Source: Bacteroides sp. (GTDB lineage: Bacteria; Bacteroidota; Bacteroidia; Bacteroidales; Muribaculaceae). From it: a DNA stretch of 54,699 nt. Positions 29,829-36,822 of this stretch are shown here, one piece after another. Position 1 is the stretch's first letter; each line of letters opens with the position of its first letter. A model generated the notes under the pieces. That model searched no databases. It had not been told where the DNA came from and worked only from the letters and a program-made list of their open reading frames with translations. A program made the position numbers and the translations under genes. Where the stretch lies: NCBI GenBank assembly GCA_014801585.1, contig JAAVDX010000029.1, positions 1 to 54,699 on the forward strand, read 5' to 3'.

Positions 29829-29909
29829 ACAAAAGTCCGGTATCTCCTAACTATATTCGAAACACATCCTTATCCTTATGGAGTATAAATACACAAAATA
29901 ATGATTATA

Positions 29910-30252
29910 CCGTAAAATGTAAATCGTCATATTTTCGGCTCTCCGTAAAATTCAAATCACCATATTTTCGGCTCTCCGTAAAATTTAAATCGCCATATTT
30001 TCGGCTCTCCGTAAAATTTAAATCGCCATATTTTCGGTTCTCCGTAAAATTTAAATCGCCATATTTTCGGCTCTCCGTAAAATTTAAATCGCCATATTTT
30101 CGGCTCTCCGTAAAATTTAAATCGTCATATTTTCGGTTCTCCGTAAAATTTAAATCGTCATATTTTCGGCTCTCCGTAAAATTTAAATCGCCATATTTTC
30201 GGCTCTCCGTAAAATTCAAATCACCATATTTTCGGCTCTCCGTAAAATTTAG
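29910..30252. repeat. 33-bp tandem array, ten full units plus a partial one
   Basis: Units start CCGTAAAAT, have a variable middle (AAATCGCCAT, AAATCGTCAT or AAATCACCAT) and end ATTTTCGGCTCT or ATTTTCGGTTCT. CCGTAAAAT and ATTTTCGG within each unit can pair (one T bulge). There are no spacers. Two frames stay open: minus-strand ESRKYGDLNFT per unit, plus-strand VKFKSPYFRLS per unit; 33 is a multiple of 3 so neither proves coding. It lies between the terminator of the tonB operon and that of the fimbrial operon, so it is probably little transcribed. From 30303 to 30496 nothing else is seen. Confidence 0.9.
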
Positions 30253-30262
30253 AATAGCAAAA

Positions 30263-30302
30263 AAGGGGTGTATCAAAATATTTGGATTTTGATACACCCC
30301 TT
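30263..30302 (-). terminator. Terminator downstream of the fimbrial operon
   Basis: Perfect 17-bp stem AAGGGGTGTATCAAAAT (30263-30279) with its complement (30286-30302) and a 6-nt loop. It lies about 195 bp after the fimbrillin stop, on the minus-strand side with TTTTTTGC beyond it. It may terminate both strands. Confidence 0.8.
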
Positions 30303-30496: not shown

Positions 30497-32587
30497 TCAC
30501 CGACGCTTAGTTCCACTTGGAGCCGACTGAGATTCAGCTTTCACCAATCGGAGCGGAAATTTTCTATCATTCGATTCGCAATAGGAGATCCATGCTACGT
30601 TACGAGCCAGTCCACCAGTTAATGCTCTTCCTTTATATTGACCCTGTGAAGCTATAGATGTTGTCATTCTTTGACACCATGTAAGGTTAGTTTTTGTAGT
30701 TCCGGAATTTATCATTCCGATAGCCGGGAATTTAAATTCGATATAATCCTTTGACCAGAAATCGTCATTATCTGCAACCATATAGACATTAACATCCAAA
30801 TTTTCCGGCAGAGCCTTAATCTTTACAGAACCATATGCTTTTGTAGGATCGCCATTATCACAATACTCATATTTATATGCAGCATATTGCGCTGTACCTT
30901 TAAAGCGAACAGCGTACACAGGCGCATAAGTCCAACAATCAGTATCACCGGAACCGAGTTTAAAACCTCCCGGAGTCTTACAATACCGGTACGTTAAGGT
31001 CTTACCTAATATCCATTGGCATATAGAAGAGATCCCTTCAGATTCATCCACATCATTTGTCGGAATTATCGGTGTGCCATCATCATTATTTTTAAATAAG
31101 GCATAATCTATTATGCTACAATCTAAATTTAAATTCAAATTCGTCAATTGGCCACTGATACACATAAAGAGATCTATGTTCATATTGGATGAATTCCCGG
31201 TATTAATGTTTGTCCCTTGTGGAAGCTCTATATCTTCAACGGCTCTTCGATTTAATGGGCAAATAAGAGCCATTTCTCCAGCTGTCGGCAGTCTATAAGC
31301 AACGCCATCGCTACCTATAATCTTATTTAATGTGGGATCGGAGGAAGTAAGACCAGCATTTTTTAACTGGTTATAAGAAAAATATGCTCCGTCAGCAGAT
31401 GTGGAATAGTCATTAAGATCCAAAGACATTTCGGGGAAAAGTTCTGCTGTCTTCGTAGTAAGATTCAGACTTTTGACATCTGTGCCTGCAAACATATTTA
31501 CTTTAAGACGAGCATTCATTGCCTGCTGCTGTTCAGAAGGGATATCCAAATCAGAGATTCCAAGATCAGAAGCAACAAATCCATCAGTCTCCTCCCAGTC
31601 TGATACATTTACATCAAACTCCAGATTGGTAGCCTTCCTCAGGGTAATGGTATACAGACGATTGACTGATATTTTTAGAGGTGCACCATTTTCGGAGGTA
31701 GGATCAATAAACTCAACCGTATGTTCCTTTTTGACAGTCTTACCATCGACGGCCTCTTCATACTCTATCGTTAGGCTTGGAACTTTCTCTGTAGCCTTAT
31801 CTATTGAAGAGTTTCTATATGAATAAATCTCATGTTTATATGTACCGGCCTTAGTTATATCGGAGTTTCCTACGAGATCCTCCGGATAATAAACGGCGTT
31901 GTCATACCATTCCGAATCGTCATTAGTATTCCATACTGATGGAGTCATCATATGAGTCTTTACTGCACGATTATTATATGTAATCTTCGTTACTTTAATA
32001 TCATCTGCCATATTTATGATATCAAAGCGTGATGCCGGACGAACCATCTCTATAGTACCCAGATCACATTTTGACGTGATACTGACGTTCATTCTTTTAC
32101 CGGAAGTACTCGAAGTCATTAAGAAATATTCAGCATCGGGAGCCTGCTTACTAACTGCATTCCTTATCTGATTTGCTCTCGCATAATTATCATAGTTTTT
32201 GCCAACTCCTTTCTCCAGATTCATAAGCATATCCTTTGTTTCTGAATCGGCATTCGCAACAAAGAATATAAAATATTCACCGTCGCGATCAACATCAATA
32301 TCATATTCACCTGTAGTTGAAGAAGGGATAGCTTCGATAGTCTTATAGAAGCCTTCCTCGATATCCCAGAGGAGGGCCAGAACGCTTTCGATGTGACGTT
32401 CGTTCTCCGTACCCTTAAGATCCTCGGCCGATGCACGTGTGCCGATTGCGTTAGCCGCACCTCCAAGACGGAAGTGGACATTACCTCTTCCCCCTTCGGC
32501 AGGATTCTCAACAAACTCCTCCCGTGCGCATGAGCCTAACATGAACAGGCTCAGGAAGAGAACCGATATCAATTTCATTATTTTCAT
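30497..32587 (-). CDS. Large fimbrillin-family lipoprotein (probable tip/minor type V pilin)
   Basis: 696 residues. Lipobox MLGSC20 then AREEFVENP. The N-terminal domain (about 30-330) is a FimA/Mfa1-type fimbrillin: RHIESVLALLWDIEEGFYKT and NRLYTITLRKATNLEFDVNVSDW, with a potential Arg cleavage site (AIGTRASAED, about 50) as used to activate type V pilins. The C-terminal half contains GVAYRLPTAGEMALICPLNRR and TYRYCKTPGGFKLGSGD, resembling FISUMP-type or lectin-like modules found in fimbrial tip adhesins. Last gene of the operon, following the smaller pilin after 41 bp. Tip identity is inference from size and position. Confidence 0.75.
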   Translation of the reverse strand: MKIMKLISVLFLSLFMLGSCAREEFVENPAEGGRGNVHFRLGGAANAIGTRASAEDLKGTENERHIESVLALLWDIEEGFYKTIEAIPSSTTGEYDIDVDRDGEYFIFFVANADSETKDMLMNLEKGVGKNYDNYARANQIRNAVSKQAPDAEYFLMTSSTSGKRMNVSITSKCDLGTIEMVRPASRFDIINMADDIKVTKITYNNRAVKTHMMTPSVWNTNDDSEWYDNAVYYPEDLVGNSDITKAGTYKHEIYSYRNSSIDKATEKVPSLTIEYEEAVDGKTVKKEHTVEFIDPTSENGAPLKISVNRLYTITLRKATNLEFDVNVSDWEETDGFVASDLGISDLDIPSEQQQAMNARLKVNMFAGTDVKSLNLTTKTAELFPEMSLDLNDYSTSADGAYFSYNQLKNAGLTSSDPTLNKIIGSDGVAYRLPTAGEMALICPLNRRAVEDIELPQGTNINTGNSSNMNIDLFMCISGQLTNLNLNLDCSIIDYALFKNNDDGTPIIPTNDVDESEGISSICQWILGKTLTYRYCKTPGGFKLGSGDTDCWTYAPVYAVRFKGTAQYAAYKYEYCDNGDPTKAYGSVKIKALPENLDVNVYMVADNDDFWSKDYIEFKFPAIGMINSGTTKTNLTWCQRMTTSIASQGQYKGRALTGGLARNVAWISYCESNDRKFPLRLVKAESQSAPSGTKRR

Positions 32588-33921: not shown

Positions 33922-34998
33922 TTAGCTGAAGGAGCCACCATCTATCCAATCGTTGACAATACCCTCAATAAGAGGGGTAACGTCAGCTTTTCCGTTACTA
34001 TATAGCGTCACAGATATAGCATACTCTTGAACATGAACCCCGGAGGGCCACCATCCCCATGCAGTGAATGCACGTTGGAGATCGATATCGGGACTTATCT
34101 GTTCACCTTTGTAATATATCCGCAAAGTCGGGATATCCGAGTCCGTGTAACGTAGAGTTACAAAATCGGCATCCAACTCAAAGCCGAGCAGAGGGATAGT
34201 CAGTCGGTGGGTGGATGTGCGGTTTGACACCGGCACAACATAACGATCAGCATCAGCCGACAGCGTTGGATCAAGAGAATAGCGCGAGGGAACGCCACTA
34301 AGTTCCAATTCATAATCCCCATACCCGGGAGGCATGTTAAACCATTCTACCTTCACACGCAGATGACAATGGATATTGTTCATTTCCGTGACCGGCCAGC
34401 CATAATCATCATAGCGACGTCGGAAACCGAGATCGGATATATACCCCTGAGAATCAATCTCAAATTCACTCACCCCCCAGAAGAGTTCATCAGTATTAGA
34501 GAGGGCAATGCCCGAATCAGATGAACCAATCCTTAAAGATGAGAGAGAGGAAGGGAGCCATTTGCCATCGTGAAGCGCGGTTGATTCAAGAGTCAGTTGG
34601 CTTACATGGCCATCACCGCTTTGAATTAACTCACTCCTATCGCTCTGATTCCCCAAATTCACCATCATATATCTACCCGCAGGTATCGCGAGCGTATGAT
34701 ACTGAATATCGCTACCCGGCTCCATCTCCCGGATGAAATTCCCCTCTGAGTCATAGAGTAGATGACGCATAGAGGAGATATGCTGTGAAAACTCATCGAT
34801 GAAATGCGGACGATATACGTAGCGCATCCCGTTGCTAAGGTTACAGCAGGCATCCCGCGGATCATCGAGTGAGCACCCGGTGAGGAGAATCATCTGAAAT
34901 ATTATCGCTATCACTCCCACGATCTTCGGTATCACACGACGCAAACGAATTATGTGTCTGCATGCCGATGTGTCGATATGTCGGATCAATAATATCAC
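33922..34998 (-). CDS. FimB/Mfa2-family fimbrial anchor lipoprotein
   Basis: 358 residues. Start is GTG at 34998, which overlaps the TGA of the preceding gene (GTGA), implying translational coupling; the only later Met (residue 36) would leave too little signal peptide. Hydrophobic segment IVGVIAIIFQMILLTGC with lipobox Cys about 42, then SLDDPRDACC. The body (RPHFIDEFSQHISSMRHLLYD, FRRRYDDYGWPVTEMNNIHCHLRVKVEWF, IDLQRAFTAWGWWPSGVHVQEYAISVTLYSNG) matches the FimB/Mfa2 anchor family that fixes the pilus to the outer membrane and limits its length. Ends near GIVNDWIDGGSFS. It is gene two of the fimbrial operon. Confidence 0.82.
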   Translation of the reverse strand: MILLIRHIDTSACRHIIRLRRVIPKIVGVIAIIFQMILLTGCSLDDPRDACCNLSNGMRYVYRPHFIDEFSQHISSMRHLLYDSEGNFIREMEPGSDIQYHTLAIPAGRYMMVNLGNQSDRSELIQSGDGHVSQLTLESTALHDGKWLPSSLSSLRIGSSDSGIALSNTDELFWGVSEFEIDSQGYISDLGFRRRYDDYGWPVTEMNNIHCHLRVKVEWFNMPPGYGDYELELSGVPSRYSLDPTLSADADRYVVPVSNRTSTHRLTIPLLGFELDADFVTLRYTDSDIPTLRIYYKGEQISPDIDLQRAFTAWGWWPSGVHVQEYAISVTLYSNGKADVTPLIEGIVNDWIDGGSFS

Positions 34999-36383
34999 TT
35001 AGCTATGATTTTCTGAGGGAAACAACCTATTATCTCAATCTCCGTGCGTCGCAGCAATGGCCACACACTACGGGCAAGTTGACGCCATTTTTTTCCTTCC
35101 TCGAGATTTATAAGAAGCCGCTTACGCTGAGCGATATCAGAATTTTCCCGTATGATTTCGACTATCTTCATGTCTTCCCGCTGATTGGGAGACCGATTGC
35201 TCAGAATCCGAATCAGTCCCTCCCAATCCTCTCCTACGCTGTAGACGCAAGTATCAAGACCATAACGTTTGGATAGATACTCAGCGACTAAGGCACTACG
35301 CTTCCGGGAAAGGGTTAGATTATGCCCGGCAGTATATTCCGGCGAGGCATAACCCACTACTCTGACACTCTTTATGCCATCTGTAGAGGATATTTCTTGA
35401 AGCAAGGAATCAAGCCTAAGAAACTCTACCTGATTATTACCAAAGGAAGTATCAACATGGAATTTATCGACCGGATAGCTTACAATAAACCGTATAGTGT
35501 CGAGTCGGACACTATCCATATGTCGCCTCTGAAGGGATGGAATGGAATCTGAGTTGGAGAGGAATATGGAATCGGAAGAATTGGAGATAGAGGGAAGAGA
35601 AGATGAAGGTAAAGGTAAAGGAGCAGGTAATGAAATAGGCAGAGGACTATTAGTTGAGGAATCATCCTTCGAGTCTAAAGCGGAATCTAATTTAATATCC
35701 TCATCCTCTACATTTTTGGGTATATTCCGATGGTTCGGATGAGAATCAAGACTATATGAGAAAGTGACACCACCTTGTGGAACCACTACGTTACGATGAT
35801 TACGCTTGAGACGGGCACCACATTTTCCGCAAGGATATTTATTATAGCGTAAGTAGGCCCAAGCCGCACCGGCATTAAGGTCGATCGACCAGCGACTACC
35901 AAGAGGGATACGATAGCCCCATGTCCCACCAAGTCCGAGGGCAGAACCCTCATAGCGGTAGGATCTCAAGAAACGTATCCAACTTATACCTCCGGCATTA
36001 TAGCGACCATAGAAAATATTTCCACTGAATAAATGACCTTTTTCTATAGAACGTAAATGGTAGACGCCCTTAAGATTCAGCAACCAGTGATGAATTTTGG
36101 GATTAATGCCCGTAGTGTTATTGTCACGACCGGGGAAGTTGAATGCATTATAACCGAATGATGCGCCGGCACTCCAGTGATCAGAGAAATCGACATTGAT
36201 TCCGGCGTTAGGAGTCGTAGTAAGCCAATATAGCGCGTTAGTCTGCAAACTGATATCAAGCGCATCCACCTCGGATGCTCCCCAAAGAAGAAGCACCATG
36301 AGGGTGAGAATCCGCCGGAAACGACGGATACCTAAGTTGAAGACCGGAAAAAGCCTCGGCGAGGCAGTTGCGAAGAAAATCAT
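34995..36383 (-). CDS. DUF3575/OmpA-like outer-membrane protein of the fimbrial operon
   Basis: 462 residues. A hydrophobic N-terminus (ILTLMVLLLWGASEVDA) precedes a DUF3575 beta-barrel domain (about 45-225: LQTNALYWLTTTPNAGINVDFS, GYRIPLGSRWSIDLNAG, CGKCGARLKRNHRN with a Cys-X-X-Cys). A Ser/Pro-rich linker (about 240-300) leads to an OmpA-like peptidoglycan-association domain (VRVVGYASPEYTAGHNLTLSRKRSALVAEYLSKRYG, about 355-395). DUF3575 proteins commonly open FimA-type operons in Bacteroidota and may anchor the pilus machinery to the cell wall. It overlaps the FimB gene by 4 bp. The 400-nt upstream leader contains the structured RNA described separately. Confidence 0.78.
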   Translation of the reverse strand: MIFFATASPRLFPVFNLGIRRFRRILTLMVLLLWGASEVDALDISLQTNALYWLTTTPNAGINVDFSDHWSAGASFGYNAFNFPGRDNNTTGINPKIHHWLLNLKGVYHLRSIEKGHLFSGNIFYGRYNAGGISWIRFLRSYRYEGSALGLGGTWGYRIPLGSRWSIDLNAGAAWAYLRYNKYPCGKCGARLKRNHRNVVVPQGGVTFSYSLDSHPNHRNIPKNVEDEDIKLDSALDSKDDSSTNSPLPISLPAPLPLPSSSLPSISNSSDSIFLSNSDSIPSLQRRHMDSVRLDTIRFIVSYPVDKFHVDTSFGNNQVEFLRLDSLLQEISSTDGIKSVRVVGYASPEYTAGHNLTLSRKRSALVAEYLSKRYGLDTCVYSVGEDWEGLIRILSNRSPNQREDMKIVEIIRENSDIAQRKRLLINLEEGKKWRQLARSVWPLLRRTEIEIIGCFPQKIIAK

Positions 36384-36464
36384 ACTTTCAAGATGCTGAA
36401 AGCGCCGGTCATCGCAACTATCAACCTATTATTCGAAGAATAACCGAAAATGGGAAGAGACTCT

Positions 36465-36609
36465 AAAAAAAGAGCGCGAGACCTAATCTGTTGCCCATTC
36501 CCATGTATTGAGGCCTTCGCATTGCCTATTTAAGTAGGAACGGGCAAACGCAGAAGCCTCACGCGAATATCTGAAGATGCTTCTTGTGCATGCACTCTCG
36601 CGCACGCAC
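36465..36609 (-). ncRNA. Structured RNA candidate with U-tract in the leader of the fimbrial operon
   Basis: Read on the minus strand: a 5' hairpin GUGCGUGC (36609-36602)/GCAUGCAC (36593-36586); a long hairpin with 17 pairs (some G-U and a mismatch) between GAGGCUUCUGC..UUGCC (36560-36543) and GGCAAUGCGAAGGCCUC (36526-36510); its loop CGUUCC (36542-36537) pairs with GGAAUG (36501-36496), forming a pseudoknot; a closing helix GCGCGAGA (36603-36596)/UCUCGCGC (36481-36474); then a run of seven U (36471-36465). The closing helix competes with the 5' hairpin. I do not recognise tmRNA, RNase P, SRP or a known riboswitch by eye; a 6S-like or family-specific RNA is possible. Strand is inferred from the U-tract and promoter. 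Confidence 0.55.
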
Positions 36610-36788
36610 ATTCAACACCATATAAAATTCCCGACAGGCATCTACCTTTTGCCACATTCTTGACTTAAATATTTTGAAAGTTGCGAAGTTTCAATACATC
36701 AAGAATGAGCGTCAGATAAACGCTGGTTATTATGTCCGCAACCCGCCAACATTCCCTCTATGGGGCTTCTGCTAACAGATTACGTCTG

Positions 36789-36822
36789 CAAATTTAGAAT
36801 TTTTTTTTATTCCGTGCAACAA
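36789..36822 (-). promoter_or_regulatory. Candidate promoter of the fimbrial operon and its leader RNA
   Basis: On the minus strand TTG repeats (complement of CAACAA at 36817-36822) and TAAATTTG (36789-36796) are spaced about 20 bp, fitting the Bacteroidota -33/-7 pattern. Predicted start near 36782 gives a leader of about 400 nt before the ATG at 36383. No flanking inverted repeats typical of a phase-variable invertible promoter were found around it. Confidence 0.5.

Follow-up and report, generated by a model that had tools for sequence, protein, structure and literature searches.

A structured leader RNA with mutually exclusive conserved helices upstream of a type V fimbrial operon and of many other Bacteroidales genes

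The window, that is, the whole stretch of DNA analysed (54,699 nt, contig JAAVDX010000029.1 of the Bacteroides sp. assembly GCA_014801585.1), carries on its minus strand an operon whose first gene, at 34995–36383, encodes a DUF3575 protein (Pfam PF12099, E 4.3e-38). The operon also includes a gene for a Mfa2-type fimbrial anchor (33922–34998, minus strand; PF08842, E 4.2e-12), one ORF without assignment and a weak FimA-like fimbrial subunit (30497–32587, minus strand; PF06321, E 6.1e-4), which at 20.4 bits lies slightly under the cut-off of 21.4. As DUF3575, Mfa2 and a weak FimA-like protein are found together, the name 'type V fimbrial operon', used in a first-pass annotation of this DNA, is reasonable. 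Past the FimA-like gene, a small ORF (29905–30297, minus strand) has repeated NFTESRKYGDL units and a weak match to pentapeptide repeats; it may be an intergenic tandem repeat and not a gene.

The DUF3575 gene begins 82 nt past the end of a U-tract, TCTTTTTTT (36465–36473, minus strand), in which the seven U described in the first-pass annotation are present as seven T at 36471–36465. The promoter proposed there, TAAATTTG at 36789, was also found as part of a promoter-like TTG – 23 nt – TAAATTTG (36789–36822, minus strand), a motif assignment that we take to be of the Bacteroidota −33/−7 type. The structured leader RNA that had been placed between these two points is real and folds better than shuffled sequences, though its size had been underestimated: the 145 nt first picked out are the 3′ half of a larger conserved RNA of about 325 nt, which extends over 36465–36785 (minus strand) to the end of the U-tract, its start being inferred from the promoter. 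A 153-nt stretch was more stable than all of 200 shuffles (z −5.4) and the 326-nt stretch more stable than all of 100 (z −9.6).

A BLASTN search with the 326-nt stretch revealed four more copies, strong or partial, in the window's own genome; counting that genome, 74 of 150 related genomes gave matches. Covariance model R1, which has a core of 252 positions, was built from 33 copies; the window copy, itself one of these training copies, scores 200.9 bits over its core at 36468–36723 (minus strand; E 4.5e-52). The model matched 104 of the 111 genomes of the genus; of 344 genomes sampled across the order 53 matched, and these belong to 35 of 195 genera. The window's genome is again counted in both figures. 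Among 198 sampled genomes of the phylum the window's own genome was the sole match. The filters of these searches may lose weak matches. Seven copies of the RNA (eight matches, one antisense, with more candidates scored) were found in the window's genome, which is 79.75% complete, and five copy-rich relatives gave 18, 16, 13, 16 and 17 matches, a few of them weak or antisense.

A pattern scan of named genome contigs gave at least 118 stretches. Their labels include Muribaculaceae, Porphyromonadaceae, Bacteroides sp. and Bacteroidales, and the sources include the cultured isolate Heminiphilus faecis AM35 (Muribaculaceae, Bacteroidales), which has four strong copies and a fifth scoring 46 bits. 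The RNA was also seen in MAGs labelled Treponema, Lachnospiraceae, Clostridium, Pseudoflavonifractor and Paenibacillus (loci L053, L056, L070, L072, L087, L106 and L149), which are perhaps mislabelled Bacteroidales bins. Spread as phage or plasmid cargo was rejected, blastn with one relative's copy giving no match in 50,697 phage and 72,556 plasmid records; by pattern search one copy was found on a viral-classed IMG/VR contig (L156, 5746–5996), before a 75-aa ORF with no Pfam match. In the window's genome two further copies, both at contig ends (L002 1–251 and L003 1–251, contigs C37 and C38), have near-identical cores and very different 5′ domains, which suggests recombination or gene conversion between RNA copies.

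The position of the RNA is consistent across loci. Of 173 testable copies, 160 have the motif TAnnTTTG no more than 160 nt 5′ of the core, and 125 of these 160 fall in two narrow spacing classes: 71–80 nt in 91 copies and 97–112 nt in 34, the latter having an inserted hairpin. Of 162 copies, 161 are followed on the same strand by an ORF of 60 aa or more, which in 146 copies lies within 150 nt; the first such ORF begins a median of 51 nt 3′ of the core. From the spacing of the promoter-like motif and the closeness of the downstream ORF it follows that the RNA fills the leader. It thus lies between a promoter-like motif and a start codon, on the coding strand, locus after locus, as a cis-acting leader should, and both its standing as a new RNA family and its cis-leader position are well supported.

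For the comparative analysis, copies were taken from 100 + 97 of 220 loci, overlapping loci being left out. Of 198 sense matches, 197 were used, one truncated by the end of its locus being dropped, and 44 antisense matches were set aside; removal of duplicates left 179 distinct copies, and 176 remained after three with short upstream DNA had been dropped. A 144-sequence alignment (A4) was left out of the pair counts. Independent double changes were estimated on a tree derived from the same alignment as the helices. For nine helices (D, E, K2, PU, H, c, F, E2 and G) controls were made by sliding the helix by 3–4 columns, and these slid controls gave 0–14 tree-estimated double changes. As many as 114 of the 176 copies had been collected by a pattern that fixes letters of the E2 5′ strand, of the K2 3′ strand and of the strand that D and c have in common, and this inflates pairing percentages and hides covariation in these helices. 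The bias was controlled with the 62 copies not chosen by the pattern, and with 102 after 40 later copies were added, against 100 shuffles, which ignore the relatedness of the copies. In the 62 copies D, E, PU, K2, H, c, F and E2 each had more double-change cells than the maximum of the 100 shuffles, and all eight still exceeded the shuffles in the 102.

Judged by comparison of sequences, covariation over the 176 copies is overwhelming for A, B, C and P6, strong for PU, E, K2, D and c, moderate for H, G and F, and low for E2. Helices A, B and C are long-range pairings in the middle of a long rod. Helix A pairs 36691–36699 with 36511–36503 (3′ strand 36503–36511; all strands here and below are on the minus strand); 98.0% of its 1576 cells are paired, with 491 double-change cells and 243 tree-estimated double changes. 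Helix B pairs CUUCGCA (36682–36688) with UGCGAAG (36515–36521), with 99.1% of 1231 cells paired and 72 tree-estimated double changes, and helix C pairs 36663–36670 with 36528–36535, with 91.6% of 1387 cells paired and 217. The 5′ strand of B (36688–36682) has only 11 distinct sequences in the 176 copies, compared with 93 for A and 80 for C, the commonest being CTTCGCA (83), CCTGGAA (31), TCTGGAA (18) and TCTGGTA (17). The possibility that A and C are kept private to each copy within a genome was considered; alleles of A are shared in 2 of 272 pairs within genomes and in 6 of 674 between them, so that sharing is equally rare in both and gives no signal of selection. In one copy-rich relative (G152) nearly all alleles differ: 17 of 17 for A and 16 of 17 for C.

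A 5′ terminal hairpin, P1 (36737–36784), is predicted in the window copy and in most of the 33 copies. Its loop provides the 5′ strand, GCAGAAGCC (36764–36772), of pseudoknot K2, whose 3′ strand is GGCUUCUGC (36550–36558); K2 shows 33 tree-estimated double changes against 4–7 in its slid controls, and all nine pairs can form in the window copy. PU (36423–36484) joins the strand 36484–36478 to a segment beyond the U-tract, nearer the start codon, and has 49 tree-estimated double changes over the 176 copies against 1–9 slid. Its 3′ segment ends a median of 21 nt before the ATG in the 141 copies measured. As PU covaries across the U-tract, the conserved unit probably includes the read-through RNA, which supports the view that the leader is part of the mRNA. 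In the window copy PU is degenerate, with about three of seven pairs, a rough count since the 3′ strand is not ungapped there. Pairs are also often broken in three of these helices: the tree-estimated pair losses were 127 for PU, 100 for K2 and 94 for E, with control ranges of 63–156, 33–70 and 48–206, respectively. P6 (36586–36609), a variable hairpin with a tetraloop that is GNRA-like by eye, has 89 tree-estimated double changes in its upper five pairs, and helix G has 10. The window copy is complete for A, B, C, K2, H, c, F, E2 and upper P6.

The first-pass annotation had proposed several pairings and a test for covariation among relatives. That test gave very strong covariation over the 176 copies, but in other helices than the proposed 17-pair hairpin and closing helix. 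The 5′ hairpin, which is P6, was borne out by 228 double-change cells, though its exact register is held in 71.3% of cells, and the CGUUCC/GGAAUG pairing is kept in 97.7% of cells and belongs to a 10-pair helix. The long hairpin GAGGCUUCUGC/GCGAAGGCCUC did not survive: tested over 33 copies in an ungapped 11-pair register it shows not one double change and is no better than shuffles, its outer seven pairs have none in 176 copies (z 0.5), and its double-change cells number 1 against 0.7 shuffled in the 62 copies and 2 against 1.4 in the 102. A local hairpin, P3 (GCGU/ACGC), was likewise rejected (z 0.9, four double changes). The closing helix GCGCGAGA/UCUCGCGC is present in the window, but relatives keep it in 65.2% of cells, with 25 double-change cells; the pairing GCGUGAGG/UCUCGCGC is kept in 97.7%, a figure inflated by how the copies were collected. 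The comparison supports competing helices in this leader, but those in competition are D and c, and E against either F or E2, and not the closing helix and the 5′ hairpin.

Helix D pairs 36647–36653 with about 36549–36543 and has 23 tree-estimated double changes against 0–7 slid (six of seven pairs in the window copy). Helix c pairs 36538–36547 with 36500–36491 (3′ strand 36491–36500), with 98.5% of 1754 cells paired and 17 tree-estimated double changes against 4–6 slid. The strand 36547–36543 is common to the two, so that D excludes c. Triples made of the D 5′ position, the shared position and the c 3′ position were read in the 176 copies as A-U-A in 85, A-U-G in 42, G-C-G in 18 and G-U-A in 14; these positions change together, which indicates that both the D and the c pairing have been kept.

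Helix E pairs a purine-rich tract followed by GCGU (36720–36728) with 36477–36469, a 3′ strand that consists of ACGC and part of the U-tract. It has 33 tree-estimated double changes against 3–14 slid and seven of nine pairs in the window copy. It overlaps F in GCGU and E2 in ACGC, and excludes both. Helix F (36715–36723 with 36646–36638) has eight tree-estimated double changes against 0–1 slid, and the outer six pairs of H, a local hairpin (36657–36705, stem 36705–36698 : 36664–36657), have 10 against 1–5. E2 pairs GCGUGAGG (36557–36564) with 36481–36474 beside the U-tract, as a terminator-like stem. On sequence comparison the conservation of mutually exclusive helices is firm for D and c and less so for E with F and for E with E2.

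The support for E2 is moderate and mixed. Over the 176 copies it shows four tree-estimated double changes against 0–2 slid, with 25 broken pairs in a control range of 13–40, and so does not stand clear of the slid controls; this low signal in the full set is partly due to the pattern used to collect copies; in the 62 non-pattern copies its double-change cells number 11, where 100 shuffles average 2.4 and reach at most 6, and in the 102 copies they number 26 against 6.6. The U-tract itself is conserved, with at least seven T in 12 in 170 of 176 copies. The T fraction is 0.69–0.95 at positions 1–9 after ACGC and pairing of helix E with the tract is supported up to about position 4; T is thus frequent beyond the reach of E, which favours a terminator-like role.

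By nesting, the helices fall into two sets, a rod (E, A, B, C, D) and local hairpins (F, H, c, E2). In the 33 copies the rod is 94.5% paired against 83.5% in shuffles, with 243 double-change cells against 70.5, and the local state 97.6% against 95.3%, with 37 against 9.5; 29 of these 37 sit in P6, which is common to both states, and F and H had no double change in this 33-copy count. Fold energies were computed for 157 of the 176 copies with a model that takes no account of pseudoknots, proteins or Mg. In 136 of the 157 the rod is favoured over the local state, by a median of 12.9 kcal/mol without pseudoknots, and in the window copy it lies just 1.3 kcal/mol below the local state. Other folds lie below both states, which are a median of 7.2 and 20.1 kcal above the optimum. 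The 5′ half alone forms F+H within 1 kcal of the optimum in 115 of the 157 copies. The stability of the rod together with F+H in the 5′ half fits an early fold that is later replaced, or a regulated switch.

The genes downstream are varied. The 146 downstream proteins form 96 BLAST clusters, and 140 of them (near-identical ones removed), trimmed to 350 residues, were searched against Pfam and NCBIfam. They match 56 Pfam families, the most frequent being BspA-type LRR_5 with 13 of 140, and an NCBIfam LRR adhesin model matches 11; DUF3575 accounts for just two, and the control specific to pilus expression that had been suggested at first is not supported. This spread does not point to a shared pathway, as a riboswitch would lead one to look for, and the genes are too varied to suggest a ligand. 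Fimbrial DUF3575-type genes are nevertheless a repeated target: homologues of the window's DUF3575 gene in the genus gave 27 match rows, corresponding to 25 distinct genes, and 12 of the 25 have the RNA directly upstream. One of the 12 is a second DUF3575-like gene in the window's genome, preceded by a diverged copy scoring 97.5 bits (L266, contig C1, 147272–147513).

Enrichment was tested for export: export-like N-termini were found in 79 of 125 downstream proteins, compared with 147 of 494 other ORFs taken as controls from these loci (p 1e-11). The test was made by a home-made rule on proteins of at least 100 aa (125 of the 140) and with control ORFs that may include spurious ones. The choice of the earliest ORF took spurious short ORFs in some copies (seven were inspected), and by eye, exported-looking ORFs can be seen in some of the copies that had at first seemed to be without a proper ORF. 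In G152, where 17 of 18 matches were taken and 16 had an ORF, ten downstream proteins were searched against Pfam, and seven of the ten have LRR or Ig-like repeats (six LRR, one Big_2). The ten submitted from a second relative (G167, 10 of 15) are more mixed, with one LRR match and one DNA methylase. By these comparisons the RNA precedes unrelated genes enriched for exported proteins. One copy (L018, 468–779) lies before a short ORF with an RRQFFKK motif, which is followed by an ORF that by eye is radical SAM-like.

We consider the RNA to be, probably, an orphan, bistable, cis-acting mRNA leader that fills the 5′ UTR from the promoter to just before the gene, with A, B, C, D, E, K2, PU, c and P6, and less strongly H, F and E2, as the structure that comparison of the copies shows to be conserved. 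A bistable regulatory function is likely. The RNA would switch between two states. In one, the long rod (E-A-B-C-D, with K2 and PU), the U-tract would be partly paired, as would the strand that precedes it; in the other, made up of the local hairpins (F, H, c, E2), a stem would adjoin a free U-tract. The 5′ half would fold first, into F and H; once the 3′ half has emerged, the choices of c or D and of E2 or E/PU would be made, and this would set read-through of the U-tract, accessibility of the start region, or both. A protein or small-molecule signal common to these genes would set the balance. In the window, the leader would tune the type V fimbrial operon as one of at least seven copies in the genome.

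How far this reading is to be preferred depends on what its rivals make of the same data. If E2 and the U-tract are an intrinsic terminator and the rod its antiterminator, the leader would be a strict transcription attenuator, a special case of the bistable leader and the terminator/antiterminator layout put forward in the first-pass annotation. We regard this as possible without counting on it. The layout is favoured by the U-tract, longer than helix E requires, by E2 standing above shuffles in both control sets, and by the presence of mutually exclusive helices, D and c both covarying and E with F/E2 more weakly. Against it, E2 in the full set has few double changes and broken pairs within the slid-control range, PU covaries beyond the U-tract, and a mechanical terminator scan, whose loop limit is 8 nt, did not report the site. 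A constitutive structured leader, with a single fold that stabilises or insulates the mRNA or sets translation and with alternative helices arising by chance or as intermediates, would account for the greater stability of the rod in most copies, for the dominance of A, B and C in the covariation and for the gap of about 20 nt before the ATG, which would suit a 5′ stabiliser that keeps clear of the ribosome site. This is unlikely, as D and c both covary above their slid controls yet cannot coexist, and their signal persists in copies not chosen by pattern.

The same promoter-like site and U-tract end could also delimit an independent trans-acting small RNA, with read-through being leakage. The covariation of PU over the U-tract and the close same-strand ORF in most copies speak against this, and we think it quite improbable. 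Fimbrial loci are often invertible, and many surface loci of Bacteroidales have invertible promoters; the strands of A, B and C do make an imperfect inverted repeat, as a DNA-level repeat of such a promoter might. However, G-U pairs are frequent in D, c and E, which indicates pairing of RNA, since DNA pairing would not allow them. The promoter lies outside the repeat, which is imperfect, and wherever the model matches in antisense a stronger sense match lies at the same place, although a copy with just its middle flipped could escape this comparison. An invertible promoter is not supported, and we give it almost no credence.

The bistable leader may be part of something wider. It is tempting, if speculative, to see here a class of RNA-level bistable leaders of about 325 nt, with more than 12 copies in some Bacteroidales genomes, that controls many surface-exposed or exported proteins (BspA-type LRR proteins, fimbriae, lipoproteins) as a counterpart to DNA-inversion switches, with self-complementary A and C private to each locus and a pseudoknot that extends across the terminator as far as the start region. 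In the mouse gut Muribaculaceae count among the main bacteria, and, to our knowledge, little is known of how their surface proteins are controlled. Should the RNA prove to be a switch, control at the RNA level would be added in a group that has mostly been studied for its DNA inversions. The RNA offers a directly testable handle on a set of genes that numbers up to about 17 in a genome, many of them for exported proteins, and is a new large structured target for structural work.

No Rfam 15 family was found above its gathering threshold in the window, in answer to the check that had been suggested, and 20 distant loci yielded just a tRNA; sub-threshold hits were GlmY (16.0 bits, threshold 33) and NRON (14.5 bits, threshold 50, on the other strand). 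The window contains no tRNA or tmRNA. In the titles and opening parts of abstracts searched, no description of the leader RNA was found. The candidate RNA HMP2_1881, described as a 108-bp element of Bacteroidetes near radical SAM genes (PMC8040213), is also a structured Bacteroidetes RNA, and the L018 copy lies near a radical SAM-like ORF, a likeness drawn from the description of HMP2_1881. The rod state, a long imperfect hairpin, resembles 6S RNA, and a 6S-like RNA had been suggested; however, the leader RNA has up to 18 matches per genome and is tied to the ORFs downstream, and the many copies per genome and the lack of an Rfam match leave a 6S-like or housekeeping function unsupported. Orphan riboswitches and attenuator leaders are long structured 5′ leaders in which helices exclude one another and a U-tract precedes the gene, and the RNA described here shares all of these; it differs from them in preceding many unrelated genes, in having a covarying helix past the U-tract, in suggesting no class of ligand and in giving no Rfam match in the loci scanned. 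The UpxY/NusG-type antitermination leaders of Bacteroides capsule loci are also leader RNAs before genes for surface functions. The present RNA likewise precedes surface-function genes of Bacteroidales and may control elongation, whereas it is about 325 nt long, has a covarying architecture and lies before scattered genes.
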